In this document: positions 13,106-63,466 of the stretch, piece by piece
How positions within the stretch are numbered: position 1 is the stretch's first letter
Layout of the letters: every line of letters starts with the position of its first letter
Notes under the pieces: model-generated
Databases searched by the model: none
Told to the model about the DNA's origin: nothing
What the model saw: only the letters and a program-made list of their open reading frames with translations
Made by a program: the position numbers and the translations under genes
Origin: Odontocerum albicorne
Lineage: Eukaryota > Arthropoda > Insecta > Trichoptera > Odontoceridae
Length of the DNA: 64,000 nt
Direction: 5' to 3'
Assembly (NCBI GenBank): GCA_949825065.1
Contig: OX463859.1
Coordinates: forward strand, 29,033,847-29,097,846

Positions 13106-13111
13106 ATGGTA

Positions 13112-37532: not shown

Positions 37533-40500
37533 GTGAATTTAATTTATTTTCTTTCATTATTTGATTTAATTTTTATCTTCTTCATCCCAGTGTCATGTCA
37601 GGTCCCCCCAACGTTGAATATCACCTGAGAGTAGGTATCTTTGTCCCCGGCAGTCCGAAAAAGATCCCCGACGCTCCTTATACCAGTCCAATCACGTATA
37701 TTGCGGAGCCAGGAGATTTGCCTCGTGCCATAACCTCTTCGACCTTTTTTGCCTTGGATGATCAGGTGCAGTAATTTGTACTCTGCTCCTCTAAGTACAT
37801 GACGTAAATAGGACACCTTTCGGATTTTAATATTAGTCAGTAACTCTACTCGTATCAACTTTGGCTCTTTGAAGAACCCTTGTGTTGCTAACCATATCCG
37901 TTCAGGGTATCCGTAGCATTCTCCGGTGTATCCACATTTCGAATGCTTCCTGTCGGTTCATACAACCAACTTTGAGGGTCCATGATTCCACTCTATGCAA
38001 TAACACTGACCAAACGTAGCATTTATCGAAGTTTTAAGTTTAGATTATCATTGCAGAATACTGTATAATTATTATAATAATAAATTTTTATAATGCTGCT
38101 AAATTTTGATGGAATACACCACTATGAAAAAAGCTCTTGGCTAAGGTGTTCTAAAAAGACAGAGTTAAATTAAGACGGAAGCAACATCTATTCCTACTAT
38201 TTTGGAATACATATGGTTTTATGTTCTTGATAACCATTTAAGATATAGAAATATTCATTTGTTTAGAATAACTTCCTAAATGCTCTTCCTTTGTTTCACG
38301 GGCTGTCACTTGTAAATAAGGCCACGGATATTAACATCTTCAACATTTCAGAAAATGTTATTAAATAAAGTATTTAGAGCTTTCTTAGTAATGGGAGTTA
38401 GCTGTTTTGGCAAAACAATTGTCATTTTATTATAATTATCAGAGTTGCAGTTTCAATGTTTATTATTTGTGTCAAGATTTCAAACTTAAAGCTTTGAAAA
38501 TATTATTATATTATATTGGACCTTTTTTGTTAGTTCCATTTCAGGCCCCTCTACACCTTGGGCCCTTTGCCTGAGAATTTATTACATCTGTATAGTTGAT
38601 GCACTGGCTATAAAGAAACGATTTTGAGGGGATGTAACTCACTAAATGCACTTTATGAAAATAACTTATCATTTTAGTCTCCAGAGAAGTCTCAAAATAT
38701 CACGCGCATGACTGAAAGGAGACCCCAGCTTTCCCAGCAAGTATCGAGAGAGAGGAGTGAAGGCAAACAGTCAAATAAGATCACCGATTCTTCAGACAAC
38801 TCAGGTATTACTTATAAAATTTTATTGCTCAAGATACACATTAAAGACAATATTGTAGATCGTTCAGCCAGAAGAGTAATTTTGCAATAGTGTGAGTAAC
38901 AGTGCGTTTACAAAAACTTGTCACTTGACATTTTTAATGAAGTGAAAAAGCAAAAAAGTATCAAAATAAAATTTTATATTCAAACATTGAAATGAATACA
39001 CGTTTTGTAAATAAAAAATGCTGTCAGCTTAAATTGTAATAATCATAAAAATAAAATGAAAGTAAGTTTATTTCACATATTACTTATTTAGGTATGACAG
39101 ATTCTAGGAAATATTAAATAACAATAATAAAATTTTTCAAGATTAAAAATAAATATAAGTACAAGTATTATAAAGTAAAAATGTTCGTCAGCTTTAATTA
39201 GATTGCACATAAAAATACAATTATTATTGTATGTAAGATTATATAACATATTAATGTATCATAATTACAATGCCAAATAATAGTGGATGGAGTGATACTA
39301 AATTCTAGGAAACTTTAAGTTATAACAAAGTACATTCTAAGCTTTCGAAAAAAATTGAATTATACATTACATTAGACAAAACTCGCACTCCTAATTTCGA
39401 CATGGTAGTGTTTTTCTAACTACCGAGTATTTTAATAACAATTCAAACGTGCGCTCTGCGCGAACCAATCGTGTGGCATTCTAAAACCAATACCACTACA
39501 TAAGTTGTGTAATAGAGAGAGTGTTCCTCACACTATTGCAAAATGACTTCTGTCTGAACGATCTATGATATACCTTCTTCTTGGTATAAATCTTGGATCT
39601 ATTCCTGGAAGGCTGAGTACCAGTTGTCTTTAAGGCTGCCTCTCTGGTATTCGATGACCTATTTTATGTTGATCTCGTGTGTTCCTATGTATGGAATTCT
39701 ATCCCTGCTCATCCTATCCACATTGTTACGCTAGTACGACATTTTCTACCTGCTCAATCGAACTATATCATCTACGCAGCAGGTTTATTGGGTGTTGAGG
39801 CGCATGGCCGCGCGGTAAAGCACTGGACATCCTTTCGAAAGGTCGCCGGATCGAACCCCACGCTGTGCTATTCCTTTCGAACAACACATACATTTTCGGC
39901 CTAGTATTCGGGGGTGTAAGGATACCTATGACTTCGGTCATATCTACTCGTATTATTAAAAAAAAAAGAAAAACATGCCAGTAAAATATTACATTTCTCA
40001 GAATATCATCTCGTCCTTCTTAACCTTTGTTTCCCTGTCTTACCTACCCTAACGAATTTTTCCTCCTGTTCTATTATTGATAGATATTGGTAATTTATTT
40101 GTTTTTTAAATTATATTTCAACGAATATTAAAAAATATCTGTCATGGATTAAAAAGTTTCATGCATCGAAGATGAACTGGTTGGTTGAAAAAAAACTGCT
40201 GTATAGCAATCGTCTTCTTCTTCCCAGTGTCATGTCAGGACCCCCCAACGTTGAATATCACTTGAGAGTAGACATCTTTGTCCCTGGCAGCCCGAAAAAA
40301 ATCTCCAACGCCCCTTATGCCAGTCCAATCACGTGTTATATTGCGGAGCCAGGAGATTTTCCTCCTGCCAACACCTCTTCGGCCCTCCACTTTGCCTTGG
40401 ATGATCAGGTGCAGCAACTTGCACTTTGCTCCTCCAAGCACACGACCCAAGTAGGACTCCAAGCTCCAAGCACTGTAGGACTCCAAGCACACGACCAAAG

Positions 40501-43500
40501 TGTATAGCAATAAGCTCGTAAAATATACCATGTGTACAAGAAAATTGAAAATTAAATAAATTTGGTCATCCGTCATTTTTCTAGGTCTTCCCAAATTTCT
40601 TGTACCTTCTATACAACTCGTATAGATTATTTTTGTAAAAATCACTCATTTTTTCGACCTGGCCAAACCATCTCGACGCTTCTTTCTTCACCTTAATCAC
40701 TGGAATTTTTTTTGCCCAATATTTATCCATAATGGTACCAAACATGCCACTGTGCTCCGATTGTCTTACCCTGATGTGCCATTGTATCGAGTGCCATGGA
40801 ATGGATAGTGAGTTTGCGGTGTGCAACAGTTCACTCTCTTTAAATAAACTCCACAGCACAGAATGGATTTCCAACCGTACTAAACCTTCCAACGCAAAGT
40901 CGCTGACTTTGTGTACGGTGCCTGAGGACCAGGCGCAGGTGGCTCAAGATCGTGGGATCTGAAGAGTTATCTATTTTCGAACTGATGTCGCCTCAACACC
41001 TTGACGTAAAGGAGCAAATCGACTGAGGCAACACTGAACGACATGATGCATGTGACATGTTTCCTAGTGTTGCCTGTCCCTAGGTGTGCGACTATATGCC
41101 ACAAATTTTAACAATGTCGCATGCGGATTTCGACTCCCCGAGTCGTATGCGCTTTGTCGTCAATACGTGTAGCATGCGTCTTAAACAATTCCACGGAAGC
41201 AACGTCAGTTTGGTACATTATGTCTTTACAAACAATCGAGGTCGTCGCATATTTGGTAATAGTTTTGAATTGAAAAAAAAAAAAAAAAGCTACGGTGCTG
41301 GAGAAGAGAATTATACGTTGGTAGTCAAGAAGCTCAGAATGATGAAAAGCTGAACACAAATTGTGATTTTTTTTCCACATCGATTACAGTGCAATCGTAT
41401 TTACTTGCTAACTGCTTCAGTTTATAATTTTTTATCTTGTTGTCTTTATAATCACCTATTTTATTATTCCATAACTCCGGTGAATTATGATAATCTTCAA
41501 TAAACAAGGTAGTTTTAGCAATATTCAACTCCATGTCGCACGCTACAAGCCGCACCGATCCGCTGACTTTCGGATAACGGCGACATTGTTCGACATGTCA
41601 AAACATGTCGAGAGGGGACGCATGCGTCCCGGCAACAACAATCAACATGTAGTGTAGTATACTACAAAGATACTTGCTTCGTGTCGCTTCGTGTTCCTTC
41701 GATTGAAAAGCTGTGTATAGCATGCGTCAATGCCGCATGCTACATGTTGCCTCGGTGGAATTGCGCCTTAAGATACATATTATGTTAGCGTGCTGCGAAT
41801 ATGCGTCTGCGTGACCAGGAAACTTAGCGGGATCTACATGGCTGTGATGTCTGCGAAGGGGATGTGCATCTAGGATCGGACTGTTCTCTCGCAGAAGATC
41901 ACACAATTGTTGTGGATGAGCAGCATAAGATTGACGACGGAATGGCGAGGGTATCCTTGACTATGAGGCACAGCAAGGACTACGACGACATCTGTACATC
42001 TACAGACCGATTGGCTATGATGTAGTGACGTCAAAGTTTTACTGCTTTTTATGATAGCACTGGCAACTTGCTAGTCTGAAGAAATCTTCTATTCTTCTTC
42101 TTCCTGGCACTGTCCCAACTCATTGCCTAGGTAGGCTGTTGGGGTCGGCTCTTCTCGTTCTCAGGCTGTATATTTTGGAGCATTGAGTCATCCAGGAATT
42201 CTTTGGTCTTCCTCTTGACGGCTGTCGAGGAAGATCCACAGACATTGCCTGATTTACAGTATGGTCTGGTGGTCTCCGTCTTATGTGCCCGTACCATCTC
42301 AGCTGTCGCTCTTCCCGCTTACTGTTTATGTCAGTGACCCCCAGGCTACCACGAATGTGTGAGCTCTTAATTTTATCTTTCAGTGATACTCCTGCCGACC
42401 AACTAAGCCTGAAGTAATCTGATGAAATTAAAAATGAGTGATTTTATTCCAGATTCAGACAGTAATGATCTGGATGAGATAGGGGTGGGGCGTAGCAGAG
42501 CGCGGGGTCGGAGCACCGTGGTGATACCCACAGAAGGGGCGTACGACCCGCAGCAGTACTCGGATCTGGATGTTTCTCCGGATATGGCCGAAGTATTTCA
42601 GCATATTCTGAGGTACCCCCATTTATACTAACTACCAATAAGACCCAAAAGTTTCCGGCGTGAACAACTGAACAAATTAGAGCGTGTATGTCCATATACC
42701 ATGCCAGCCATGCCCATCACATGATTAGGTATTGTAACAGTTAAAATTTGATACCTCTACCTTGTGTCATGTCAGGTCACCCCAACGTTGAATATCACCT
42801 GAGAGTAGACATCTTTGTCCCCGACAGCCCGAAAAAGATCTCCAACGCCCCTTATGCAAGTTCAATCAGGTATATTGCGGAGTCAGAAAACTTGCCTCCT
42901 GCCAACACCTCTTCGGCCTTCTATTTTGCCTTGGATGATGCAGTAATTTGTACTTTGCTCCTCTAAGTACGTGACTCAAGTAGGACACCTTTCGGATTTT
43001 AATATTAGTCAGCAGCTCTCTATCAACTTTGGCTCTTTGAAGAACCCTTGTGTAACTGACCATATCCGTCCAGGGTATCCGTAGCATTCTCCGGTGCATC
43101 CACATTTCGAATGCTTCCAGTCGGTTCATACTTACCAACCTTTAGTTATATGTCAACTAAAATCAGTGAAAGACGTGATGTTTCGTTATATTTTGAAATG
43201 TCACTATAAATTTATTCCGTCTTAGGGATGCGCTATCAAAAAAGTTTGGAGACCACTGTTCTAATAGAACTTCGTTGCATTGCAAATCAATAAATTTTAG
43301 TCGAATATTCATTGGAGAAAAATCAACATTTTTGGAAAAAGGCCGAGTGATAAAATGCTTTCAATGTCTCGAAATTTTCATTTCAAAAACTCAAAAATTG
43401 ACCCGCGAGCCGTAGTTGGGCCATTCTTGAACAAGACCATGGAAGTCTTGCGAATTAAGCCAGAGTAATCTAATAATTGATTATAAAGGGTCTTTCAAAT

Positions 43501-46500
43501 TTAGCGGTTTTTTTAATTCATTTTTTTTTAATTCTTGTATAAAATACACAATTTGCTTTGATTTCAATTTTTTTTCTTGCTCATTGAAGTATAATATATG
43601 AAATATAAAACATAAAAAAACAATATCCGCCAAATGTCCACCTCTTACAGCTCCACAGATGTCCACTCTTTTGTCAAAAATTTCGATGACATTTTGGCAT
43701 AATTGCGGTTCTAACTCACCAATAATGCGAATAATTGATTGGGAGTCATCCTTATAGACTTAGCTTTTCACGTACCCCCAGAGAATATAGTCCAACGGTG
43801 TCAGATCACATGATCTTGGTGGTCAATTAACATCACCGTTTCCGGAGATTACAATACATAAAATAATTCTCAATTTGAACGAGTTGTTGTATTGTATACG
43901 ACTCCATTTTTATAAATGTCATACATTACACTTCTCAAATATTACAAGATGCAGGCAAGTTCACGACGCCATCTGTGTTTTATCCAAGAATTAAAAAAAA
44001 AACCGCTCAATTTGAAAGACCCTTTATAACTTTTTTTCTTCAGTTTTGATATCAATTAAAATGTTGTCTCAGGTATGCTCCGCAGAAGATAGACATAGAC
44101 TTCAAACTGAAGCCTTTTTTGCCGGACTACATCCCCGCGGTGGGGGATATCGACGCCTTTATCAAGGTAGCCACCCCTCAGTGCAACGTGCGCGGTGAAA
44201 AGTTACTGCAGAAGACACAGGATAAGATTGCCGAGCTTGGTAAGTTAAGAAATGTTAACGCTTTAAAGCCCAGAAAAAAATTTGAAAATTATTTTTTATT
44301 TAGATAATCACGCAAATTGGTTTGGTACATATTTTTGTGCTGATTTACAGCTCTTTCGATCTTATAAATCGATAAGAAAGTTTCGTCTTGTACATATTCA
44401 ATGCTAGTAAAGTAGCTTTTAAGGCCCTCAATATGCCTCATAGCATCTTCTTTTGTTGGAATTGGATGGATTAAGTTTACCTCTTCTTCACCAGATAATT
44501 CTTCGTCGGATAAGTTTTCATGGATGTGACTGTCCACTATATCATCGATATCCATAACTTCAGATGTCATCACAATTAGAGTAGGAACATCCGTCTGCTT
44601 CCAATCTTCAGCGGTCTCCAAATCAACACTTCGAGATTCCTCGCAAACTGATCTATATACCACTGAGGGCCTTTTCTTGAAACCATCTATCCAGCCATTT
44701 GATGTAGTAAATCCTTAGATATTTAATCGAGACGCAATGTGCAGGGCCTTATCTCAAATGAATGGACCGTTGACTGGCATATTGCTGGAACGTGAGCTGT
44801 CAAACCATTCTTTAAGGATTTCTTCCATTTCATCGTATTTTGAAGATCGTATGTAACATACATGCGTTTTTTCGCCATGGGACCACATTGCATCGCACTT
44901 TTTTTCAATCGATTTGTGATTTTTTACTATCGTAGCCAAAGTTGTAATGGGTATCCCCAAATCACGCGCGAGCGAAACACGTGAACCAACGTGTTTATTC
45001 ATTTTTTAAAGAATTTTCCTTTTCTCTTGAATCGGTAATGTTTTTCTTCGCTAAGACATTATTTGAAGGGATTCAACGAAAAATTAAAAGAAATGAAAAA
45101 AATGTAAATTGACACACGAAATACACGACAATTGACAATTAAAATTGTATGTACACGTCCGACACGTTTAAAACACAATCACAGATTGACCTGCCTATAC
45201 AGTCTGCCTCCCTCTGATTCGCTAAATTTCTCACCAATTGCATCGTATTACACGACTCGTGTAACCTTGACCATGAGCGCTGCAGGTGCACACGTGTCTA
45301 TAAATAGAAACAAAATATTTCTGCTTCCTAATATTCATTTCAAATATTTTAAATCGTCGCGCATTTAATTAAATGTGTTTATAAATTGATTTGCATTTTA
45401 AATATTTCAAACGTAAATTGCGGGAAATAAAAACGTAAAAGCGGGTACTAAATGTACTAAAATAAAACGGGATTGTAAAAATTGAACGCAAATAGCGGGA
45501 AAACGTGAATTCCGGGTACGTAAAAACGGGGTTTCACTGTACTTTAATAATTTATTTTAGTGTAGTGAATTTGCACACATTTTGCTTTGTGGAGAGCTAT
45601 ATCACATTCATTACACATGTACCGGGTCTCGCTTTTCTTCTTTTGCTTAGCACACACCTTGCAAGTTCGGCAAGGTTTTCCTTTTTCGTAATTTGATGGA
45701 ATGTATGTTTAGAAACATTCTTTAACAACCTGTTTGGAGGGTCCTGCTAATTCATTATTCAATTTGGTCCCGGAGACTGTAGTTGGTCTCCAGATTCATA
45801 TGTCAAAATCTTTAAGATTTAACACTTTATTGCTCACTAATGACGTGACGTAAGAATCTTCATAATAAACCAATTCATGCTGTACGCCACTGGTACAAAG
45901 AACTGTAACAATAGGTGGATGACTGCTGCTCGATGCTCGGAGAATTCAGCTCACGTTGAAAAGTGGTAGATCGGTGAAAGGTAGAAGAGATTCCTCTCAG
46001 GCAGGTAGTAGATGGTCTCAAGTAAAACACAGTAGGCAGAGTGAACTGAAAATTATTTATTTTTGGTTTTGGCGGTTCTTATGTGCAGCTAATCGCTCAT
46101 CGCAAGCGCCTGTTTTCGCCTGTGCATGTCGTCACACCTCGTGTAATATCACAATTTTCGCCAGTTTTGCGCATGCAGAGGCCGGCCGACTTGCGATACT
46201 GTCTCGCGATGACCGCGCACAAGGTACATTTCCGTTACGGTCGCGACACAGCGCGGATCCCAACAATCATAAAATTATTAAATATAACAAAAATACACAT
46301 ACAAATATTTCACAAAATCAGTAATTTATATATGTAAACCTGAAAACAAACGTCAATGTTTTAGGTGACGTCCGTACGTCCGATACACATGCATATTTTC
46401 ATTATTTAGGATATCTATTGTCCATGCTAGAAATCAGTATGATAAATCAGGAGACTATCGTTTAAGGACTGAATTGTTAGCAAAAATATTTGCAAGATGC

Positions 46501-49500: not shown

Positions 49501-51526
49501 TACTCGTATGTTGGCGCTGTAGGAGCTGTTGCTATGTTGGCACTGTAGGAGCTGTTTCTATGTTGGCGATGTAGTAGTTGTTGCTATGTTGGCGCTGTAA
49601 GAGCTGTTTCTATGTTGGCGCTGTAGGAGCTGTTGCTATGTTGGCGCTGTATGAGCTGTTGCTATGTTGGCGCTGTAGGAGCTGTTTCTATGTTTACGCT
49701 GTAGGATCTGTTGCTATGTTGGCGCTGTATGAGCTGTTGCTATGTTGGCGCTGTAGGAGCTGTTGCTATGTTGGCGCTGTATGAGCTGTTGCTATGTTGG
49801 CACTGTAGGAGCTGTTTCTATGTTGACGCTGTAGAAGCTGTTGCTATGTTGGCGCTGTATGAGCTGTTGCTATGTTGGCGTTGTAGGAACTGTTGCTATG
49901 TTGGCGCTGTAGGAGCTGTTTCTATGTTGGCGATGTAGGAGCTGTTTTTGTGTTGGCGCTGTGGGAGCTGTTGCTATGTTGTCACTGTAGGGGCTGTTGC
50001 TATGTTGGCGCTGCAGGAGCTGTTGCTATGTAAAAAATTCGCCCGTATTATCTTTGACTTTGGATGATTAATTTATTATTTTGTTAATTTATTACGTTGT
50101 TTTTGCTCAAATTATACGTATATTAATCGTGTAAATAAAATCAAATTTAACAGAGTACTTATTTTTTTTCAGGTTGTCAAAAAAATAGAAAACGCAGAAA
50201 AGAACGGCAAAGCTATAGAGCGATGGGTGAGAGACGTGAGTGAACTTCATCAATCCAAACCACCACCAAATGTACATTATACCAGGTAATACTACAGTTT
50301 ATTTGATTTTTTTCAACTCCCACAAGCTATCATGGTACAAGAATGAATCGTATATTAAGCCATATAAATATATTTTATTTGATTTTTTCAACTCCCACCG
50401 GCTATTATGGTACAATAATGAATCGTACATTATGCAAGAAATGTACATTATGCCAGGTCACTACAGTTTATTTGTTTTTTTTTCAACTCCCACCAGCTAT
50501 GTATCGTACATTATGTACATAAATGTACATTATGCCAGGTCACTACGGTTTATTTGATTTTTTTCAACTTTCACCAGCTATTATGGAACAAGAATGAATC
50601 GTACATACATTATACCAGAAATGTACATTATGACAGGTCACTACGGTTTATTTGACTTTTTTCAACTTCCACCAGCTATTATGGAACAAGAATGATTTTT
50701 TATTACAAACTTTACTCACATTTATTTTCTTTCACTTTTAATTTGACACTCATAATAATTTGATTGTGTTTTACCATTATAATTATAACCCAGAAAAGTG
50801 TGGTACGGTTAAATATCTTTCAGATTGGTTGCACGAAATTGCTACATGCCAATAAACCCACGAGGTTGTATTGCATACAACAACTTCTTCTTTTTCAGCC
50901 GTTCTGGCTCCATCCCTGGATATAGGCCTCCCCTTCGGTCCTACTGTCCATTTGGGGGTAATTTGGACACTACTGGTAGTACTCGTAGTTCCATGTCACG
51001 CTGTCCAAATGCGGGTTGACATGGGGATTTCAAGGTTTCCTTCCTGGGGGATCTGGCACATGCATTTCTGCCTGTGCAGATGTTACGGTTATACCGCCGA
51101 TGCTCGGTCGCCAGAGCATCGTTAGTTATCTAGCAGGGGATACCGCGTGCAGGTGGGGTTGACATTTGGGTTGGCTATGTGTTGTTTGCCATCACCCCTA
51201 ACACCCCTTGCATACAACAACAGTGTAATGAAATACAAACACTCTTGATATTTGTTCTTGTTTTTAGGCTAATGCCAGACATAGATACGTTGATGCAAGA
51301 ATGGCCCGAAGCACTGGAAACGAAGCTGAACGAGGTGGGTTTCCCTCCAGCGACTCTCGACTGCTCGCTGGGACAATATGTAGACGTGGTGTGCACCCTC
51401 TTCAGCATACCATTGCATCCGGAGTTGGGGTTAAACGGCCGGGTGCAGGCTCTGCATGTCCTCTTCACGTTGTACGAGGCCATCAAGAACTCGCAGCTCT
51501 ATAGAGAGGGACAGAACTCAGCTTAG
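37329..51526 (+). CDS. IFT46: Intraflagellar transport protein 46 (IFT46), seven exons, 377 aa
   Basis: IFT-B core subunit that, in other organisms, works with IFT52 and helps carry cargo into cilia. In insects, cilia are limited to sensory neurons and sperm. Exons: 37329-37532, 38678-38804, 42453-42612, 44073-44239, 48028-48131, 50173-50285, 51268-51526. All introns are GT-AG with matching phases. An in-frame TGA five codons upstream supports the ATG at 37329. The N-terminal 140 residues are acidic and low-complexity, as in orthologues. The conserved part starts at GAYDPQQYSDLDVSPDM and continues FLPDYIPAVGDIDAFIKV, LVVLDEPAPNQSDP, ENAEKNGKAIERW, SELHQSKPPPNVHYTR and LMPDIDTLMQEWP, then the C-terminal helices. 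It is longer than human IFT46 (304 aa), mainly at the N-terminus and by an exon-4 tail (CNVRGEKLLQKTQDKIAELG) that human IFT46 lacks. Introns carry many repeats; no exon is broken. Confidence 0.96.
37577..38030 (-). mobile_element. Non-LTR element N1, 3' fragment in IFT46 intron 1
   Basis: Antisense to IFT46. The minus strand reads VESWTLKVGCMNRQEAFEMW, then RMLRIPWTDMV-like, ELLTNIKIRKVSYLRHVL, RQISWLRNIRDWTG and VIFNVGGT, with a GAA-type tail at 37577. It carries an exact CTCGTA insertion at 37849-37854 relative to other copies. Confidence 0.85.
37847..37854. other. TACTCGTA scar in N1 copy
   Basis: ACTCTA-CTCGTA-TCAACTTTGG; the 43.0-kb copy reads CTCTATCAACTTTGG. Confidence 0.8.
38678..38804 (+). 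CDS. IFT46: IFT46 exon 2
   Basis: Acceptor ATTTTAG. Polar, disordered segment (RMTERRPQLSQQVSRERSEG). Donor GTATTA. Ends in phase 1. Confidence 0.82.
38810..39555. other. Unassigned intron sequence
   Basis: AT-rich DNA in IFT46 intron 2. The frame continuing from exon 2 to 38890 is intron read-through, not coding. Confidence 0.5.
39798..39962 (+). mobile_element. tRNA-derived SINE (family S2), copy 2
   Basis: A-box TGGCCGCGCGGTAAAGC, B-box GGATCGAACCCC, body GTATTCGGGGGTGTAAGGAT, 3' ATGACTTCGGTCATAT then an A-run. It contains TACTCGTA at 39945-39952, where copy 1 reads TATATATT. Confidence 0.82.
39945..39952. other. TACTCGTA in SINE S2 copy 2
   Basis: CATATCTA-CTCGTA-TTATTAAA; SINE copy 1 reads CATATATATTCTTTAAA, compatible with insertion at a TA. 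Confidence 0.6.
40211..40462 (-). mobile_element. Non-LTR element N1, 3' fragment in IFT46 intron 2
   Basis: Minus strand RRGVGRRKISWLRNITRDWT, GDFFRAARDKDVYSQVIFNV and a (GAA)n tail (TCTTCTTCTTCCC on the plus strand). A short tandem duplication of CTCCAAGC.AC follows at 40458-40500. Confidence 0.82.
40585..40735 (-). mobile_element. Short RT C-terminal fragment
   Basis: Minus strand: KVKKEASRWFGQVEKMSDFY then LYELYRRYKKFG, the RWFGHVERM-type motif found near the end of endonuclease-RT ORFs. Confidence 0.55.
41050..41775 (-). mobile_element. PIF/Harbinger-like remnant with MADF frame
   Basis: Contains the MADF frame 41555-41334 between blocks related by inversion: TGTAGCATGCGTCTTAAACA and AATTCCACGGAAGCAACG at the left, GCATGCTACATGTTGCC and CGGTGGAATTGCG at the right. 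MADF/Myb proteins are the usual second ORF of PIF/Harbinger transposons. The transposase itself is absent. Confidence 0.5.
41334..41555 (-). pseudogene. MADF-domain fragment
   Basis: TTLFIEDYHNSPELWNNKIG, then NYKLKQLASKYDCTVIDVEK, matches the first helices of a MADF DNA-binding domain. The frame then ends in low-complexity sequence, so the domain is cut off. Confidence 0.65.
42085..42420 (-). mobile_element. Non-LTR fragment ending near IFT46 exon 3
   Basis: Minus strand: REERQLRWYGHIRRRPPDHT, then SRGRPKNSWMTQCSK and a GAAGAAGAAGAATA tail at 42090. RT C-terminal pattern with a 3' GAA tail. Confidence 0.7.
42453..42612 (+). CDS. IFT46: IFT46 exon 3
   Basis: Acceptor ATTCCAG. Encodes DSDSNDLDEIG and the start of the conserved domain GAYDPQQYSDLDVSPDMAEV. 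Donor GTACCC. A retroelement remnant ends about 33 bases before the exon. Confidence 0.94.
42764..43142 (-). mobile_element. Non-LTR element N1, 3' fragment in IFT46 intron 3
   Basis: The frame 43138-42866 reads MNRLEAFEMWMHRRMLRIPW, TDMVSYTRVLQRAKVDRELL and KVSYLSHVLRGAKYKLL. This copy has the uninterrupted CTCTATCAAC sequence (43018-43027), where the 37.8-kb copy has an extra CTCGTA. Confidence 0.85.
43484..44026 (-). mobile_element. Tc1/mariner-superfamily deletion derivative, 543 bp
   Basis: TA-flanked (43482-43483, 44027-44028). Ends TAAAGGGTCTTTCAAATTTA and reverse TAAAGGGTCTTTCAAATTGA. The minus strand keeps only the transposase C-terminus (CDLTPLDYILWGY-like, LEPQLCQNVIEIF, VDICGAVRGGHLADIVF). 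It ends 46 bases before IFT46 exon 4. Sister copy at 56057-56585. Confidence 0.88.
44073..44239 (+). CDS. IFT46: IFT46 exon 4
   Basis: Acceptor TCTCAG. Encodes RYAPQKIDIDFKLKPFLPDY and IPAVGDIDAFIKV. The last 25 residues after FIKV are poorly conserved. Donor GTAAGT. Confidence 0.95.
44289..44663 (-). pseudogene. Tigger transposase, HTH end joined to C-terminus
   Basis: 124 residues. The DDE catalytic domain between the HTH end and the acidic C-terminus has been deleted, so there is no catalytic potential. Confidence 0.8.
44754..45002 (-). pseudogene. Tigger transposase N-terminus
   Basis: 82 residues: HTH_psq/CENP-B type domain and part of the second HTH (YDEMEEILKEWFDSSRSSNM). It ends at a stop where Tigger proteins continue; a frameshift separates it from 44663-44289. 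Confidence 0.85.
45541..45830 (-). pseudogene. piggyBac-like transposase C-terminus (Cys-rich domain)
   Basis: The minus strand at about 45690-45545 reads GKPCRTCKVCAKQKKKSETR, then YMCNECDIALHKAKCVQIHY. This is the cross-brace zinc domain at the end of piggyBac transposases. Upstream sequence (RPTTVSGTKLNNELAGPSKQ) fits the linker but has stops. The Tigger end lies directly beside it. Confidence 0.75.
45840..46705. other. Unassigned intron sequence
   Basis: IFT46 intron 4. The frame 45956-46324 has no recognisable domain and overlaps another frame. No feature is supported. Confidence 0.4.
46713..46896. repeat. 33-bp minisatellite, about 5.5 copies
   Basis: Unit CCATATTTGTGCATATATCT plus CTATTATTTCTCT. 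The overlapping frames on both strands are repeat translations. It is in IFT46 intron 4. Confidence 0.95.
46995..47497 (+). mobile_element. Non-LTR element N1 with RT core joined to C-terminus
   Basis: Starts in the RT palm (NNKSKGIPIQRGV, stop, QGCILSPILFNLYSEVFEM), then passes directly to MHRRMLRIPWTDMVRNTRVL and the usual N1 3' end with a GAAGAAAAAGAAGAA tail. The YADD-containing part is deleted. This copy ties family N1 to the non-LTR RT superfamily. Confidence 0.85.
47640..47887. repeat. 34-bp minisatellite, about 7 copies
   Basis: Unit TGTGTTATGTAAGAGACATT plus TGAGTGTTATTTAT. It is in IFT46 intron 4, about 140 bases before exon 5. Confidence 0.95.
48028..48131 (+). CDS. IFT46: IFT46 exon 5
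   Basis: Acceptor TTCTCAG. Encodes GLVVLDEPAPNQSDPALLHL. Donor GTGCGT. A MITE begins 94 bases downstream. Confidence 0.95.
48226..48463. mobile_element. Foldback MITE, 238 bp, TA target
   Basis: Inverted repeats of about 95 bp (CAGTACCCGGCGGTAAGTAA ... reverse CAGCACCCAGCGGTAAGTAA), TA on both sides (48224-48225, 48464-48465). The CAGT start suggests a pogo-related origin. It is 94 bases after IFT46 exon 5. A partial copy lies at 62079-62195. Confidence 0.88.
48632..48999. repeat. 23-bp minisatellite, about 16 copies
   Basis: Unit AAAACGCTGATTGTATGCTG plus GAT/AAT. Copies are rather diverged (older than neighbouring arrays). It is in IFT46 intron 5. Confidence 0.93.
49357..50030. repeat. 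26-bp minisatellite, about 26 copies
   Basis: Unit GTTGGCGCTGTAGGAGCTGT plus TGCTAT. GC-richer than its surroundings. One copy has an extra CTCGTA at 49503-49508. It is in IFT46 intron 5; frames through it (49578-49938) are not genes. Confidence 0.96.
49501..49508. other. TACTCGTA scar in 26-bp array
   Basis: GCTGTTTCTA-CTCGTA-TGTTGGCG; other units read GCTGTTTCTATGTTGGCG. Confidence 0.85.
50173..50285 (+). CDS. IFT46: IFT46 exon 6
   Basis: T-rich acceptor TTTTCAG. Encodes ENAEKNGKAIERWVRDVSEL and HQSKPPPNVHYTR. Donor GTAATA. The last 18 exon bases are copied into the following intron by a tandem repeat (50268-50700). Confidence 0.95.
50268..50700 (+). repeat. Tandem repeat that copies the IFT46 exon 6 donor site
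   Basis: The end of exon 6 plus its donor (AAATGTACATTATACCAG then GTAATA) recurs in the intron as AAATGTACATTATGCCAG then GTCACT at 50439 and 50521, and as AAATGTACATTATGACAG then GTCACT at 50619. Between copies the unit has a T-run and CAACTCCCACCAG, which looks like an acceptor. Some copies therefore have both acceptor-like and donor-like ends. Confidence 0.85.
50885..51207 (-). mobile_element. SINE-like retroelement with 14-bp target duplication
   Basis: Flanked by TTGCATACAACAAC at 50871-50884 and 51208-51221. The minus-strand 3' end is a GAAAAAGAAGAA tail, as in the LINEs here, suggesting shared machinery. No protein is coded. It is in IFT46 intron 6, ending about 45 bases before exon 7. 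A fragment of the family is at 8075-8205. Confidence 0.88.
51268..51526 (+). CDS. IFT46: IFT46 exon 7 (last)
   Basis: Acceptor TTTTTAG. Encodes LMPDIDTLMQEWPEALETKL, DCSLGQYVDVVCTLFSIPLH and the final helix RVQALHVLFTLYEAIKNSQL. Stop TAG at 51524-51526. Confidence 0.96.
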
Positions 51527-52790: not shown

Positions 52791-52838
52791 CTTCAATACA
52801 AACAAAGCGAAGACAAAGCTGATGTACAGCAGCTCATG

Positions 52839-53482: not shown

Positions 53483-53489
53483 AACAGCA

Positions 53490-54285
53490 TCTCTATTAAT
53501 AGAGTATGGTAAATATAAGTATTAGAGTGCCACTCTTGCTGGGGATGGCGTCTCAGAGAGGGGCATTAAGAGGGTCTATGGACAATATGAGTGTCCTGTG
53601 CGCCTTAAGTCTTAAGATAGAGGGTTGATCTGCATTCGGTCTATTTGGATCTTGGCATGTTTTCTAAGTCAAACTTAAAACAAGACCTTCAATAAAAGGA
53701 AGAAAGAGTAAAAACTAAAAGTATATTTATAAAAAAAATTGTTGTCAAATACATACAAAATATTACAAACTAAAAATGAATTTAAACAATCTAACATTTT
53801 AATCTATATTATTTCTTTGGAGTATCACATATTGAAAAACATCCTTTAACTTGAATGTGAATTCAAGTTGAAAGATATCAAAGCATTTAATACTTAATTC
53901 AGTAATGTTAAAGCTACCTTCGTCCTTTTAACCTCAACCCTTTTTATCAATATATATTTAATTACCCATACATTGTGATAAAAATATGTACATAAATATT
54001 GGAATATCTAGTGCCCTTTGCGAGACAGATTTGATTTATTTAAGGCCGTATCATTGTCGCCATCAAATAATGTTGCGTTTTTTCTTTCTTAGTGGAACTT
54101 TTCCACTTATAGATCGATTGTTAAATTTTTGAAGATTAATCAGCAGAACCTTTAAATTGTCTAGAATTGTCATGTTAAAAAAATGTATTGTTATATTGAC
54201 TCGTATAATTGAAAAATAACTCACACTTACGAAAAAAATTCAGATTTGACCAATATAGTTTTTTTTTCCGTGAGTACTCTTATGT
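53490..54285. other. No recognisable feature
   Basis: AT-rich intergenic DNA; nothing supported. Confidence 0.5.
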
Positions 54286-54286
54286 A

Positions 54287-55165: not shown

Positions 55166-55189
55166 AATATTTAAAATAAAATGATATAT

Positions 55190-55355
55190 ACAAAATTGAA
55201 ATGAAGTTAGTTCGTAGTTATAGTCGTAATTATATATATATTAGATTAGTTTTTAAGATATACATTTGTAATTGTATATCTGTATTATAGCCTTTGGTAA
55301 ATGTTTGTACTACGAGTATACATATATTACTCTATTAAATAAAAAAAAATATACA
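55190..55355 (+). mobile_element. Jockey-like 3' UTR, diverged copy
   Basis: Resembles 60895-61053 (ATAGCCTT.G.AAAT.TTTGTA, TTAAATAAAAAAAAATATA). It carries TACGAGTA at 55311-55318, where the 61-kb copy has no such insertion. Confidence 0.6.
55311..55318. other. TACGAGTA in Jockey-like 3' UTR copy
   Basis: TTTGTACTA-CGAGTA-TACATATATTACT; the 61-kb copy reads TTTGTACAATATTACT. Confidence 0.55.
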
Positions 55356-55589
55356 GGCAAAAGCTTAGTTTATTGGGAATATGAAAAATAAAGTCAACAA
55401 CCATTGTCTTTTCTGTTTGTTTTGTTTTTCATGTTAGATATGCAGTACAGTGGAGTAAGTGTTTTGTATAATATGAACTGTTACATTGTGGGTATTAAAG
55501 TTCCTCAAATCCATGCTGTTTCATAGGGTAACTACCCCTGGGGGGCGGGGCGAGGCTCTTCCAACGGGAATTCACTGGAAGGAGGAGCC

Positions 55590-55890: not shown

Positions 55891-56056
55891 TTATAGTGAA
55901 ACGTGTGAGGCTTTGTTGCTGCCATATTCAAAGAATATTATTTTTTTGTTAAAAACATTTAGTTTTTCTTTCTTAACATAATTTTTGTTACCATACACGT
56001 ACTATCCAAAATGCTATATTTTGACTTTATGTGTATATGTAAAAAATAAACCAACC

Positions 56057-56585: not shown

Positions 56586-56855
56586 CAAAACATATTTTTA
56601 TTGTAGTTTATTCATAGATAACATACATATGGTATACACGTCATTTCCCTGTCGGGATAGGCGGAGGAACCATCATCCAACCATAATTTCCTTGGTCTTC
56701 ATCTCACACGTCTTCTACACATATTTGCACTATAGGTATATCTGTTTTTTGCCCTTTTTCATGCCTTCGTTCTACGAGTATATTTTTTTTTTTTTTATAC
56801 CCACTTTGCACGGATTTCTCCTGTTACACAAAGAGGGTTTGCTTCTAGCGTTAGC

Positions 56856-57640
56856 TTATTCGTTAGGAATAATATCAGCCAGGATTCTTCTCATACTGCT
56901 AGACGGTACCGAGAATATATCAACCGTGTCATTCAGTTGGTTCAATATCTCTATACCACGCGTGACTGAGTGTTTAGCCATGATATTCGTCCTGTAAGTT
57001 GGTATGTAGAACAGAGGGTGATTCCTTGCACGGATATATTTATTGGGTACATATAAACTTAGTGCTTCTAGAATCGCGGGACAGTTAAAGGAACCTTGGA
57101 AAACCTTTATTAGGAATATCGCAATGGATTCTTGCCTTCTTGTTTCAAGGCTTCTATAGTTACACACCGTGAGAAGTTCGGCATGGTGAGCATATTTTGG
57201 GTAATCGCCCTTTGTTCTGTACCATAGATATCTGAGGAATTTTTTTTGTATTTGTTCTATATTGTTTTTGTATTTGAGCTGGTGAGGAGCCCAAACCGTA
57301 GATGCATATTCTAATTTGGTTCTAATTAGATAATTATATAAGTTCCGGAGGATATCGGTGCTGTTAAATTCTCTTGATATTCTCATTACAAAACCGAGTA
57401 GTTTGTAACAGTCCGATATCAAACGTGAGACATGGTTAACGAACGTGAGTCCGACATCGAAGGTTACGCCCAAATCCTTGAATTCAGAAACTCTGTTTAG
57501 TGCCACTCCCTGTATAGTATACTGATGGTGGATTGGTGAAAACGATCGACTATAAGATACACAGACACATTTGTTAATGTTGAACAGAAGATGATTATTT
57601 AATAAGCGTACATCAATCATGTACTTGCAAATATATTAAC
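56856..57640 (-). pseudogene. Non-LTR reverse transcriptase C-terminal half (254-aa open frame)
   Basis: The longest uninterrupted frame in the window: LLNNHLLFNINKCVCVSYSR, FKDLGVTFDVGLTFVNHVSR, YNYLIRTKLEYASTVWAPHQ, IEQIQKKFLRYLWYR and SLETRRQES. These mark the part of CR1/Daphne/Jockey-like ORF2 just after the palm and through the thumb. The N-terminal endonuclease and catalytic aspartates are missing. The open frame suggests a fairly recent 5' truncation. Confidence 0.85.
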
Positions 57641-57959
57641 CGAGTTAAATTAACATTTAATAGTTAATGTTTCCTTTGAGTTAAGTTTATATTAAATTCT
57701 ATATTAAACATACTTTTGTTGCATACAAACCCATACAAATCAGCGTGACGTTTTCTCGGTTGGACATAACAAAACAGGCAGGATACACTCAATCTTCAGA
57801 CTTAAGGATAAGGAATCCCAAGGATATTTATCAGGACATCCATTGTAAGAATATATATTTCATGCTGAAAATCATTATTGAAATTGTTGATTCATACAAA
57901 GGAATGTTCCAATAATATCTCGAAATTAAAAAAAATTTACAATATTTGGATCCTTTTTT

Positions 57960-58560
57960 ACAGATGTATTTCTAATAACGAATTTAGATGCCATTTAGAG
58001 CCAATTGAACAAGCAACCCAGTTCAGATATCTTGGCAGTGAACTGCTCAGCTCTCATGACCTCCCCAGAGAAGTAAGGCCTCAGGTAGGAAAAGCTGCAT
58101 TTGTGGCGGGTAGCCTGAGAGATGTCATACGGAGGAATAAAGATATGACGCATTTATAAGACCTGTGTGCGACCTATCCTCACATATGGTATCAAAGCGA
58201 GGGCTGACACTGTCAGGACAAAAAGTATGCTAAGGACAACGGAAATGAGAACTCTACGCGCTATAGCTGGGAAGATTTTGCGTGATCTTGTAAGGAACAC
58301 CACGATCCGAGAGGTCTGTGAGGTCCAAGATGTGGTCAGATGGGGACGACAGCGCCGACAATACTGGTACCAACATGTACAGAGAATGAATTCCACTAGA
58401 ATCCCATACATAGCTCTGCATGGGGTGCAGGATGGACGGCATCCACCAGGGAGACCACCGAAACGATGGAGAGATAGCTGGAGCTCAGCATCATAGGAGG
58501 ACAATCCTGCAGTAACAGACTCTTGAGTCTATAGAAAGTTTAAGAAGAAGAAGAAGGGGA
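57960..58560 (+). mobile_element. Non-LTR element N3, 3' fragment with GAA tail
   Basis: QATQFRYLGSELLSSHDLPR, EVRPQVGKAAFVAGSLRDVI, a frameshift near 58160, then RPILTYGIKARADT, EMRTLRAIAGKILRDLVRNT and WGRQRRQYWYQHVQRMNSTR (58167-58496). Ends AAGAAGAAGAAGAAGG. Same type of endonuclease-RT tail as N1 but a different family. Confidence 0.82.
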
Positions 58561-58964
58561 TTTAGATGGAATACGTCTAAGCATGTATTAATTGAGCGCT
58601 GCTGTTAAAGCTGTTGAGCTTCAGCAAGTACACAATCTTGAGATATCAAATTTAAAGACAAGTGTTACACCACTAAGCCATACAGATTTTTTAATTAAGA
58701 TTATAAAGATTTCGTCAAATCATTTGATTATAAATAATAAATATTAACTCCCGAAGTTCCTGAATATAAACTACTCCTGATACGTCACTGTGTTTTTCCA
58801 TTGTTCTCACTTCTCTTAGTGATTTTTCTCAGCTGGTAACCTGGAAATAAATTTAAAAAATGTAGAAATGGTTTTTGTAAAATAAAAAATATTTTAACTG
58901 ACATTTATATACGTCATAATCTATGCCAGTAGCGCTACTACGCCAATGTGCCGCAGTGAATAAA

Positions 58965-59820
58965 TAAATATAGGTTTATTGATAGCAACACAGTATGTAT
59001 TGGGTATTAACATAAATTGTGTCCATTTTTTTCAAATTTAATTGTCGAACGTTGATTTTTGTTGTTTTCACTCAAAACATGTGGAACCCAAGCGCTGAAC
59101 TTCTGAACATTTCCCATTGATTTAAGATGGCGGTATACAGTCATGTGATTACAAGTCATCTGCTCAGCCAATTCTACGGTGGTTTGAAGGGGATCTTCAT
59201 GAATAATATGGTTTGAGCGGTTCTCACCGAAGTCAACTGGTCGTCCGGAACGCTCCATGTCTTTCAGGTCGAAATTACCGTCTATGAAACGCAAAAACCA
59301 TCGACAACTGTCCTTTCATTCATATCATCTTCATCGTACACTTCGCAAATATCGCGAGCAGCTTTGGCCGCTTTATTCCCTCGATTGATCGCGAACAGAA
59401 GATGGTGTCGAAAATGCTCACTTTCGTCTACTTGATATTCCACTGTGAAGGCTTGTAATCAAATAAAATAATATGTATAACGTAAAAGTAAACACAACAT
59501 CTTGTAGAGAAGAAAATTGACTTTCGAATGACGTATGATCTTTACCATTTTGTTTCACTTTTGATGCTCATTTTTAAATTTGAAAAAAAAAAACGGACAT
59601 AACTTATGTTAACACCTAATACATATATATAAATACATTTAAAAATCGGATATGTATCTCAAGATAAATAGCAGAAAATACATTTAAAAGAAAAGCTATT
59701 TATTAAAATGTCTGAGGTCACCTCATAACATCCCCCGGCCGAGATACACCCCATTGATATAGAACGAGCCCGGCCGCGAGGACACCAAATGTTTTTCAGT
59801 TCACACCCTTGTACATATAA
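58965..59820 (-). mobile_element. Family Y, minus copy interrupted by a mariner
   Basis: The 3' tail (58995-58965: TGTTGCTATCAATAAACC) and body (59820-59705: GGTGTGAACTGAAAAACATT, GGGGTGTATCTCGGCCGGGG) are separated by the 620-bp mariner 59000-59619, with TA on both sides. Confidence 0.75.
59000..59619 (-). mobile_element. mariner family M, deletion derivative (620 bp)
   Basis: TA-flanked (58998-58999, 59620-59621). Ends TTGGGTATTAACATAAATTG and reverse TTAGGTGTTAACATAAGTTA. On the minus strand the transposase N-terminus is recognisable (frame 59294-59007: MERSGRPVDFGENRSNHIIH, TVELAEQMTCNHMTVYRHLK, WVPHVLSENNKNQRS). All catalytic sequence is deleted. Confidence 0.92.
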
Positions 59821-59835
59821 GTGCTTCTAATATTA

Positions 59836-60360
59836 CATTGTATTAAACTTTCGTTGTATACAGTATAACCTGGCATGCTAAACCTCTAAACGAGTTTGGC
59901 CGTACGGCGTATGACGAGCGAATTTTTACCTCAAGAGAGTATGGAGGTACACGGCACATCCGTTGGTTGGTTTCGAAGCAATGATTTCGAACCACTGGTT
60001 TCGAACCAATGGTTTCGAACACGTGGCTCAAATGTTTTTATCTATTCAATTATTTTGTATATGATGACCGCAATTTCGTTTTTTATTTGTGAAAAATATT
60101 TGTTAGTAGAACACTAACAATTTGGTGAAAAAAAAACCAATTCAGATAATTTTTAAATGTTAAAAAAAAACTCACTCCTTTATACATATTTTACTTACAA
60201 AATCTCACTCGCTTAGAGGTTAATGCCATATTGAAATCTCGTCCCACCAACCAGAAAGATGTAAAAGTTGAAAAAAAAACAATCAGGGTTTCAGTGGGAT
60301 TTGAACACGCAACCTCCGGAATGGGAGACGGGCGTCTTACCAACTAGACCACGGAGTTTG
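59836..60360 (-). mobile_element. SINE S1, copy 2, split by element W
   Basis: The tRNA-like head on the minus strand at 60360-60290 has GTGGTCTAGTTGGTAAGACG and GGTTGCGTGTTCAAATCCC. Body TCTTTCTGGTTGGTGGGACG follows, then element W. The SINE end (59878-59836) continues on the far side of W. Confidence 0.75.
59883..60219 (+). mobile_element. TTAA-target element W (337 bp), inserted in a SINE
   Basis: Inverted ends CCTCTAAACGAG and reverse CCTCTAAGCGAG. TTAA at 60220-60223 and TAAA (probably mutated TTAA) at 59879-59882. The interior has a triple TTTCGAA(C/G) motif (59963-60020). No transposase; piggyBac-like by target site. Confidence 0.75.
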
Positions 60361-60364
60361 CCAC

Positions 60365-60735
60365 ATGTTCAAGAATAATATTGCGGAACAATTGACTTCA
60401 AATTGCAGTACTTTTAGTATGAATAACGCGATGGAACCTTCTTGTTTCGAAATTTCTGTATTTGCATACCAGATCAGTCGTTATTTACTTGAAAATCTTG
60501 AGATCATCAGTAAACAGCTAACAAGATGAGTGATTCAAGGAGTTTTGGATATAATTAATGAAAGTTAGAAATAATAAGGGATCTAGATTTGATCCGTGAG
60601 GTAAACCTGTGAATGAATAGAACACATAGTTTAGAGCTCAATAAATATGTATGACAGAAATTAATGGAGAACTGAATAGGCTGAAGGAAGAAAATGTAGA
60701 TAGTTGGAAAGATTTAAATTATTGAATTAGTAAAT
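60365..60735. other. Unassigned stretch
   Basis: Possibly degraded LINE coding sequence leading into the Jockey-like 3' end (LENLEIISKQLTR near 60492; GLKPVNE near 60600), but stops are too frequent for a firm call. Confidence 0.35.
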
Positions 60736-60739
60736 TATA

Positions 60740-61053
60740 TGAGAAAAAAGGTCTGAGTGAATGTGATGGAATACAAGTAGCCTGAACGAGTGGACTTGTT
60801 CTTGCTACATAATTAGTTGTAAGAATTGTTATCTAGTTATAAGTAGTATGTAGGTGTTAATTATTTCTAAGAAATCATATATTAAGATTATAAAAAATAA
60901 AAATAAAATGACATGTAGGAAAATAAGATTAAGTAAGTTCATAAATTATAATATATAAATAAGATTAGTTAAGTAATAAATGTGTATATATAGTAGGTAT
61001 AGCCTTGACAAATATTTGTACAATATTACTTAGTTTAATAAAAAAAAATATAT
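60740..61053 (+). mobile_element. Jockey-like 3' UTR with poly(A)
   Basis: Reverse-complement match to 3640-3930 (GAATGTGATGGAATACAAGT, GTAGGTGTTAATTATTTCT, TAGTTAAGTAATAAATG). Ends AATAAAAAAAAATAT. 3' end only. Confidence 0.75.
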
Positions 61054-61055
61054 GT

Positions 61056-61250
61056 GAAAAAAGTGTGGGCTGAAAAACATCTGATATCCTCGTGGTGGGG
61101 CTCGCCCTATATTGATGGGGTGTATCTCAGTCGGGGGAATGTTATGAGATGAGCCCAGACCTTTTGATAGATAGATATATGTATGTGCGATTTCAGAATG
61201 TATTTATATATCTACATTCCATGTTGATACTGTAGGATACCTACCTAAAT
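61056..61250 (+). mobile_element. Family Y, copy 4
   Basis: GTGTGGGCTGAAAAACATCT, CTCGCCCTATATTGATGGGG, GAGATGAGCCCAGACCTTTT, a degraded tail CATTCCATGTTGATACTG, then (TAAA)n. It sits directly after the Jockey-like poly(A). Confidence 0.7.
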
Positions 61251-61259
61251 AAATAAATA

Positions 61260-61850
61260 AATAAATAATTGTCAAAATAAATAAGTGAATTGTTAAACAT
61301 AATTAAATTAAATTAATTATTGTTGAAATGGTAAACATACAGGGTCAATGACCGATGAAGTATTCATAGAATGTTACACGCTAAGAACAACAATAATGTT
61401 TACTATTTTTATAGTATCTGCGATTTGTCTAGCCATCTCAAAATACAAATAAATAAGCTACCGCCAAATTCACGCGCCAGAGTAAGACAGAACATGTAGC
61501 GCGAACTGGCTCACTCATTTGTATAAATTACTCGCGCGCCGAGAAATAAACATATTAGTATTGTCATTCACTCAGCTGTCAAGACTTGTATTATTTACCC
61601 GCTGTCACTTTCATTTCTTATCCGCATTCCTGAGTATTTATAAATAAACAAATATAAATCAAGATCATCACGACATATCAAGACAAGCAACACGCTATAT
61701 TGATGACCCTGAACAAAAGGGAACGCAGAATTCAACTAAAACGAAGATAGCGATGTCGATATCAACATCATCAGCACATCCTAGTAGGATACATGCTACA
61801 TAGATAACGACCATCGCTATAATACTAATAAACATATATTTATATAATAT
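61260..61850. other. No recognisable feature
   Basis: AT-rich; no frame, repeat or terminal structure that I can support. Confidence 0.4.
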
Positions 61851-61851
61851 T

Positions 61852-61984
61852 TATGGTTAAGGCATTAACATTGTGGAAATTTAAAGACATTGTAATTTGT
61901 TTAATCAAACACTTTATTCCAGTGCATAGAGTGTTATATAAAAATAAATAAATAGTGTTTATTAAACAAATTACAAACATTGTT
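61852..61984. mobile_element. MITE family V, copy 2
   Basis: GTAATTTGTTTAATCAAACA inverted as GTGTTTATTAAACAAATTAC around a short spacer. The left flank GTTAAGGCATTAACATTGTG matches the right flank of copy 1 (21725) in reverse. Confidence 0.6.
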
Positions 61985-62078
61985 TATTTATTTAAATGTT
62001 TGAATGTTGAGGAGGTAAAAGTGTGTGCATGATTGAAAAGGTGAGGAGATCTGAACTCTCTGTATACGTTGATAGGAG

Positions 62079-62195
62079 CATAGAGTGATGGTATTCATAC
62101 ACGTGTTTCGTCGCGTTGTCGCGTACCGGACTGTTAGCGTATCGTGCGACAGAGACGATGCTCTACAAAGCCATGTGTATTACTTACCACCGGGT
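62079..62195. mobile_element. Partial copy of the 48226 foldback MITE
   Basis: GAGACGATGCTCTACAAAGC and GTGTATTACTTACCACCGGG then TACTG match one arm of 48226-48463. The other arm is missing. Confidence 0.7.
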
Positions 62196-62325
62196 ACTGT
62201 AACTAATAACCCAATGAATGATTAATGTGCACTTAAGTGACTGCAAAATCTGGTTACCACAAATGGACTTCACATAGTACCATATCTTTATGGGTGGCTA
62301 TGTAACTCATGATATGAAAGTGTTA

Positions 62326-62508
62326 TTAACCTGGTCTCCTATTAAGAGGGCAGTATTTAATGGTGTGTGCAATAGGTCCAGTAGCTCCGCATAGGGGGCA
62401 GATGTACCTCCTCAGGACGGGGCACAGCAGGGCTCCAGAATCGTCCCTGAGGCGGTGGTTGCTGTATACGTTGGGCTTCTGCTTTACGTTCTTGCAAAAT
62501 GCGCAATT
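62326..62508 (-). CDS. nanos: nanos-family protein, last exon (zinc-finger domain)
   Basis: Nanos proteins are translational repressors. With Pumilio they bind mRNA and recruit deadenylation machinery, and they protect germ-cell fate. The exon opens after acceptor ATTTTCAG and encodes NCAFCKNVKQKPNVYSNHRL, then a DDSG linker, CPVLRRYICPLCGATG and AHTIKYCPLNRRPG, stop TAA at 62326-62328. Both CCHC zinc knuckles are complete with family spacing (C-x2-C-x12-H-x10-C, then C-x2-C-x7-H-x4-C). The conserved VYSxH and CPVLRxYxCPxCGATG signatures are present. This exon holds almost only the zinc domain. The start codon and upstream exons must lie right of 62508; I cannot find them before the window ends. 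A nanos paralogue rather than the orthologue is possible. Confidence 0.93.
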   Translation of the reverse strand, partial: NCAFCKNVKQKPNVYSNHRLRDDSGALLCPVLRRYICPLCGATGPIAHTIKYCPLNRRPG

Positions 62509-63229
62509 CTGAAAATTGTACAATTGTCGAAATGAAAAAAATATAATAATGCTAGCGTAGCTCTGTTACTGATACTCGTATATGTCGTATTCTTGCCTTC
62601 AGTACCTGCGCAACATTCAACTCTTATACAATATACGGCAGAGTTAAGTGACTGTTGAGCACTAAAATGTGTTTTGTTAATATTGTGGAACCAAAACTCC
62701 ATTTCATTTAAATAAAATTAAAACACGGTTACTTTTTTGGTTCCTTTTTATTTATTGCAAATCATAATGCATTTCAACACTGGCTGTGTCATCATCAGAT
62801 GAGTTGTCAAGAACTGATGTATATCATATATCATATACTGGCTATGTCAACACTGGCTGTGTCATCATCAGATGAGTTGTCAAGAACGGATGCATATATC
62901 ATATACTGGCTGTGTCAACACTGGATGTGTTATCATTAGGTGAGTTGTCAAGAACTGATGTATATCATATACTGGCTATGTCAACACTGGCTGTGCCATC
63001 ATCAGATGAGTTGTCAAGAACGGATGTATATATACTGGCTGTGTCAACACTGGCTGTGTCGTCATTAGGTGAGTTGTCAAGAACTGATGTATATCATATA
63101 TCATATACTGGCTATGTCAACACTAGCTGTGTCATCATCAGATGAGTTGTCACGAACGGATTTATACATATATACTGACTGTGTCAACACTGGCTGTGTC
63201 ATCATTAGGTGAGTTGTCAAGAACTGATG

Positions 63230-63237
63230 TACGAGTA
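63230..63237. other. TACGAGTA scar in terminal minisatellite
   Basis: GATGTA-CGAGTA-TATCATATATC; other units read GATGTATATCATATATC. Confidence 0.88.
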
Positions 63238-63308
63238 TATCATATATCATATACTGACTATGTCAACACTGGCTGTATCATCATCAGATAAGTTGTCAAG
63301 AACGGATG

Positions 63309-63316
63309 TACTCGTA
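63309..63316. other. TACTCGTA scar in terminal minisatellite
   Basis: GATGTA-CTCGTA-TATATACTGG; another unit (63014-63029) reads GATGTATATATACTGG. Confidence 0.88.
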
Positions 63317-63384
63317 TATATACTGGCTGTGTCAACACTGGATGTGTCATCATTAGGTGAGTTGTCAAGAACTGATGTATATCA

Positions 63385-63392
63385 TACTCGTA
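63385..63392. other. TACTCGTA scar in terminal minisatellite
   Basis: ATATCATA-CTCGTA-TATCATATACTG; other units read ATATCATATATCATATACTG. Confidence 0.88.
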
Positions 63393-63458
63393 TATCATAT
63401 ACTGACTATGTCAACACTGGCTGTGTCATCATCAGATGATTTGTCAAGAACGGATGTA

Positions 63459-63466
63459 TACGAGTA
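63459..63466. other. TACGAGTA scar in terminal minisatellite
   Basis: GATGTATA-CGAGTA-TATACTGG; another unit reads GATGTATATATACTGG. Confidence 0.88.

Follow-up and report, generated by a model that had tools for sequence, protein, structure and literature searches.

The 64,000-nucleotide stretch of the Odontocerum albicorne genome considered here (assembly GCA_949825065.1, contig OX463859.1, positions 29,033,847 to 29,097,846; hereafter the window) contains repeated copies of an eight-base word, TACGAGTA, and of its reverse complement, TACTCGTA. The octamer consists of two TA dinucleotides around a CGAG or CTCG core, and in several repeats it replaces a single TA of the sibling copies. The question raised by the locus is what produced this recurrent insertion of six base pairs (bp). 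A sequence-only reading had attributed it to the excision of mariner transposons with CGAGGG ends. According to the analysis described below, the octamers are most probably heritable excision footprints of TA-targeting mariners with ends CGAG(GG)...(CC)CTCG; the earlier observation and its interpretation were correct in substance, and the effect exceeds what a single window shows.

Abundance of the octamer

The window contains exactly 13 octamers, all of them at the positions reported earlier. A chance origin is ruled out, as none of 100 dinucleotide-preserving shuffles reaches this number (mean 1.47, standard deviation 1.26, largest 6); the claimed excess over chance therefore stands, while the accompanying expectation of two to three copies was too high. 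Of the 218 CTCG cores in the window, 13 are flanked by TA on both sides, more than by any other pair (5 for the runner-up). A second word of equal base content, TACTCCTA, is also enriched; it forms the repeat unit of a 15-bp array at 375-857.

The assembly (1,287,057,991 bases in 1,241 contigs) was sampled by fourteen 10-kb stretches chosen by position only, at 5,000,001 on the long contigs of C1-C20 (140 kb in total); six of the 20 intended stretches do not exist because the contigs are too short. The control count that had been proposed with the original reading gives a strong excess in these unselected stretches: 62 octamers are present, compared with 3.75 expected under an order-2 Markov model. 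Removal of tandem near-duplicates leaves 54 distinct loci, which refutes the idea that the octamer is a piece of a longer shared motif. The octamer ranks first among the 136 strand-collapsed TA-NNNN-TA words (16.5-fold, versus 3.3-fold for the second word), and at least one copy is found in 13 of the 14 stretches, L015 having none. Both orientations occur in near-equal numbers, with seven CTCG and six CGAG on the plus strand of the window, and 35 CTCG and 27 CGAG in the sample. If the 140 kb are typical, an excess of this size corresponds to about 460,000 octamers genome-wide.

Insertions at TA in aligned repeats

An all-against-all alignment of the repeats in the 204 kb of window and sample was scanned for indels, of which those lacking good flanks were dropped. 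Seven of the 21 six-base indel entries can be written as TA-NNNN-TA versus TA, and the core is CGAG or CTCG in all seven (L013:3852, L020:3161, L020:3214 with weaker flanks, and four sites in the terminal array of the window). Where the TAs are separated by 2, 3 or 5 bases the cores are mixed, and the two cases with 1 base both have A; a few longer indels include the same octamer plus adjoining bases. The TA-centring on which the original reading depended is thus recovered by an unbiased scan with no core other than CGAG/CTCG, and each event corresponds to the net gain, at a TA, of a second TA together with a few bases of the element's termini.

The four window sites belong to an AT-rich tandem array at 62774..63568 and are exact 6-bp insertions relative to sibling units: 63230..63237 and 63459..63466 on the plus strand (TACGAGTA), 63309..63316 and 63385..63392 on the minus strand (TACTCGTA on the plus strand). 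As they occupy different TAs of the unit and occur in both orientations, they represent separate events, and amplification of the array is excluded as their origin. One further unit of the array, at 63163-63172, has CATA added after TA (TA-CA-TA), which is a single case; TA-CA-TA is the form of Tc1 footprints.

Target preference and resident mariners

The 54 sample loci share a symmetrical context, ATA-octamer-TAT. Both ends were examined in twenty copies from a resident mariner family with CGAGGG ends, and two copies were excluded for want of a readable TA-C(G/A)AGGG left end. The remaining 18 have the form TA, C(G/A)AGGG...CCCTCG, TA (with one CAAGGG left end), and their outer preference is that of the scars. 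At each of six flank positions, scars and elements show no significant difference (Fisher p 0.10 to 1.0), and both exceed the frequency of the same flank letters at all sample TAs (0.36-0.37). Octamers with three to four matching flank bases number 35, compared with 0.77 simulated. The octamers therefore share the target preference of element insertions, and their bases are those of both ends of the resident elements, including the two of the window. At L080 (C32:7060996-7061066), a resident CGAGGG mariner has an octamer about 10 bases beyond its right end.

The two window elements are minus-strand relics between TAs, at 19311..20228 (internally deleted, with an HTH_48 domain) and at 27514..28608. 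Both have CGAGGG ends next to TA, as had been noted; as a source of the scars, however, these broken relics are less convincing than a young CGAGGG family elsewhere in the genome, which is the likelier one. A member of this family lies on C263, a 28-kb contig that constitutes a second version of window 12.8-42 kb at about 89-99% identity. The contig is partly rearranged and represents either a second haplotype that remained unplaced or a duplicate with rearrangements; in its pieces (L043, L023, L044, L046, L045) the part matching window 12816-14397 is out of order. C263 has a single TA in place of element 27514-28608, and where the window in turn shows a single TA, it contains another mariner, 1.3 kb long, whose left end reads CGAGGG and whose right end reads CCCTTG. 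The latter encodes a Mos1-type transposase (PDB ID: 3hos, E 2.2e-35; Transposase_1 and HTH_48 domains), as expected of the source. Forty of 2,222 candidates for its family were scored; nearly all are full length, and those other than the C263 copy itself are 94-97% identical to it. Among protein matches, about 109 of the 141 scored (of 83,838 candidates) are free of stops by a count of the rows, and many have open frames of about 362 codons; the figures 2,222 and 83,838 are first-look candidates rather than element totals. The copy at C2:36489260 combines a frame of about 362 codons with CGAGGG...CCCTCG ends between TAs. Across the 204 kb of window and sample, CGAGGG is found at both ends of two mariners and CGAGG at the left end of a third, alongside 75 octamers.

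Proposed excision mechanism

The element would enter the TA of an ATA-TA-TAT-like target, and this TA would be duplicated. During excision, one strand might be cut at the element end and its partner four bases within the element, so that each flank would be left with the 3' overhang CGAG. The overhangs (5'-CGAG versus 3'-GAGC) could form base pairs at the outer C:G and G:C, leaving two central mismatches, and repair retaining the letters of one strand would yield TA-CGAG-TA or TA-CTCG-TA, with 6 bp gained overall. From the sequences we infer the 4-nucleotide stagger, the pairing and the germ-line end joining, as well as the identity of the makers as CGAGGG mariners rather than a related CGAG-ended element.

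The original reading assumed a TA duplication with about three terminal bases. The duplication and the terminal bases are confirmed, but the number of bases is four, and the three-base words TACGATA and TATCGTA are at or below expectation (4 versus 4.7 and 4 versus 4.8 in the window; 6 versus 10.9 and 5 versus 9.9 in the sample), so a three-base footprint of the Mos1 kind is rejected. If the two central mismatches were repaired independently, the products would be TACGCGTA or TACTAGTA; the window contains neither, and this variant is likewise rejected.

Inheritance and age of the scars

Within tandem arrays, shared scars have a single orientation (three in L012, five in L016 and three in L020). 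One L016 unit has a mutated scar; the last unit of the array, L016:7602-7650, reads TACTCTTA, apparently a decayed scar. The single orientation per array and the mutated L016 form show that these array scars were copied as DNA, by tandem duplication. The scar at 37847 is common to the window and C263.

The 24 one-base variants of the octamer total 96 in the sample, against 96.9 expected. In sample and window together they number 130 against 139.7 over all flank classes, and 16 against 17.9 simulated with three to four matching flank bases. Since these variants are at expectation, most scars look young in substitutions, and the mean scar age could be bounded, roughly, at about 0.03 substitutions per site. 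A small surplus among variants with two matching flank bases (52 versus 40.8, standard deviation 6.7) suggests that some decay is possible.

Alternative explanations

Minos, a Tc1-family element, has the ends CGAGCCCC, and the letters of its footprint, as given by Arca et al. in 1997, are reportedly the two octamers. A Minos-like element could accordingly have made the scars, the CGAGGG mariners merely sharing its first four bases. Its characteristic footprint in Drosophila is six bp long (excerpt of PMC3386967), as is the insertion described here, while Mos1 leaves three nucleotides (excerpt of PMC4505599), unlike the octamers. Another study, in the portion consulted, lists +4, +6 and +8 insertions for Minos (PMC6980720). 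No TACGAGCC end is present in the window or among the other listed TACGAG sites of the 140-kb sample (a genome-wide search was not made), whereas CGAGG-ended mariners occur in both, and the Minos-like origin is regarded as unlikely. Far less probable is programmed or somatic excision, in which elements kept in the germ line would be cut from the sequenced body and leave fresh scars in the assembly. The near absence of decayed scars would agree with it, as would the report, in the available part of PMC13148408, that end-joined empty sites of C. elegans are mainly somatic. The single orientation within each tandem array, however, would have odds of about 1 in 256 under independent excision; together with the mutated scar in L016 it leads to the rejection of purely somatic scars, and the 37847 scar held by both the window and C263 argues in the same direction. 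The least credible possibility, hardly to be entertained, would make the octamer a short motif, functional or carried by repeats, rather than an inserted sequence. Some octamers are indeed located within repeats or read as codons (L014:2230, L044:2172), but the number of distinct loci in the sample, the TA-centred presence/absence in the indel scan, which already contradicts a motif, and flanks whose transposase-like target preference equals that of the resident elements all speak for insertion. A comparison with Rfam gave no lead.

Excision of CGAGGG mariners is thus favoured by the excess in the sample, the indel scan and the TA-inserted CGAGGG elements themselves, and the earlier proposal is upheld in this respect. 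Several observations weigh against it. Filled and empty alleles, for which a search had been suggested, are found between the window and C263 (27514-28608 and the 1.3-kb mariner), but a filled/scar pair is not: only filled/empty and scar/empty pairs are seen, and at both sites with an informative alternative allele, that allele is a pristine empty site rather than a scar. Mos1, the best studied mariner, leaves three nucleotides. The mixed-repair words TACGCGTA and TACTAGTA are not clearly enriched in the sample (4 versus 2.3 and 8 versus 2.8, both strands). Decayed scars are almost absent, hence no long accumulation is visible. In 19 further copies of a long interspersed nuclear element (LINE), totalling 8,114 bases, no octamer occurs where about three would be expected at sample density; these copies are TA-poor (5.6% versus 9.1%) and were chosen as best matches. 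Finally, the octamers at L014:2230 and L044:2172 read as codons of another mariner. This mariner, with different ends (TTAGGTC...) and an apparently long open transposase frame, is located at L014:1165-2455 and L044:1950-3250; the latter copy, on C263, is missing from the window near 35421-35426.

Individual octamers and neighbouring features

Outside the terminal array, the comparators are more varied. The scar at 37847..37854 (minus strand) lies in a LINE copy. It is an exact insertion relative to two (L030, L035) of the 15 copies with a readable motif among 19 fetched elsewhere in the genome, the other four being left out; its three siblings in the window have one extra CT, so that the net difference from them is 4 bp and not exact. 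The octamer at 49501..49508 (minus strand), in a 26-bp array, has a clean junction, yet its unit is also 9 bp short. Exact restoration of the sibling sequence, originally described for six places, consequently holds for five (at 37847 only if copies from elsewhere in the genome serve as comparators), and at 49501 for the junction alone. Two more octamers thought to fit the same pattern, at 39945..39952 (minus strand) and 55311..55318 (plus strand), form no clean insertion against any sibling compared. Five had been listed as lacking a comparator. For one of them, 12731..12738 (plus strand), three diverged siblings (71-80% identity) were found, in which the 6 bp are missing; the other four are still without one. 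Three of these lie at 8453..8460 (plus strand), 50980..50987 (minus strand) and 62573..62580 (minus strand). The fourth, at 56773..56780 (plus strand), adjoins the end of a high-copy repeat, and a genome search for its comparator returned only a repeat starting just past the octamer. The repeat (1,955 first-look candidates) starts within about 3 bases of the octamer, the two together marking 56773-56783, and may have inserted at the scar.

Other features of the window include a mariner remnant beginning with TACGAGGCGTACTTTG and extending from 28702 onward, 90 bases past element 27514-28608. A TA-flanked element at 22366-23511 has long inverted repeats (TTGGGTGTTAACATAAG) and a mariner-like frame, with relatives near 54280 and at 59040-59625. 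The frame at 51134-51526 presumably resembles intraflagellar transport protein 46.

Relation to known systems and significance

Among known elements, Minos, of the Tc1 family and from Drosophila hydei, leaves a footprint of six bp (PMC3386967). The footprint letters and the heteroduplex model are reportedly shared as well. The ends of Minos, CGAGCCCC, distinguish it from the Mos1-like residents with CGAGGG ends described here. Sleeping Beauty leaves TAC(A/T)GTA (PMC3878927, in part), in which the TA is duplicated, the outer bases pair and the middle is mismatched, as here; its footprint has three bases instead of four. Mos1 shares the transposase family and the TA target with the resident mariner, but has an overhang of three bases in the excerpted text of PMC4505599, as opposed to the four inferred here, and a 4-nucleotide stagger is not reported for it. 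Mariners of Rhodnius prolixus likewise have CGAGG(G) ends and a TA duplication; the words footprint and excision are absent from the main text of that paper (PMC4678618, seen in part). Excision sites of rice DNA transposons, mariner included, were surveyed genome-wide as in this work, but the joins were varied (8 of 94 perfect, the rest with deletions or filler, according to the part of PMC4423477 used), whereas a single uniform footprint is observed here. No title or abstract opening among the literature searched reports genome-wide counts of mariner scars, subscription papers and supplements being outside that scope, and the octamers as text retrieved no paper on footprints, as judged by title and abstract. 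The kind of event is known; the four-base mariner footprint and its scale are apparently new.

It seems somewhat favoured that this genome carries, by extrapolation, about 460,000 heritable scars, far above the number of resident CGAG-ended mariners, and that most insertions of these mariners have been excised with a 4-nucleotide stagger and sealed by germ-line end joining. Homologous repair conceals most germ-line excision in C. elegans (PMC13148408), and a genome full of end-joined scars would contrast with that germ line. If the interpretation is true, a mariner cuts four bases inside its end, and several hundred thousand 6-bp indels stem from its activity, such indels preserving the frame within coding sequence. 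Cut-and-paste excision is usually invisible in an assembly; if a single eight-base word counts it, then excision rates, germ-line repair choice and the turnover within a transposon family could be measured from single genomes.

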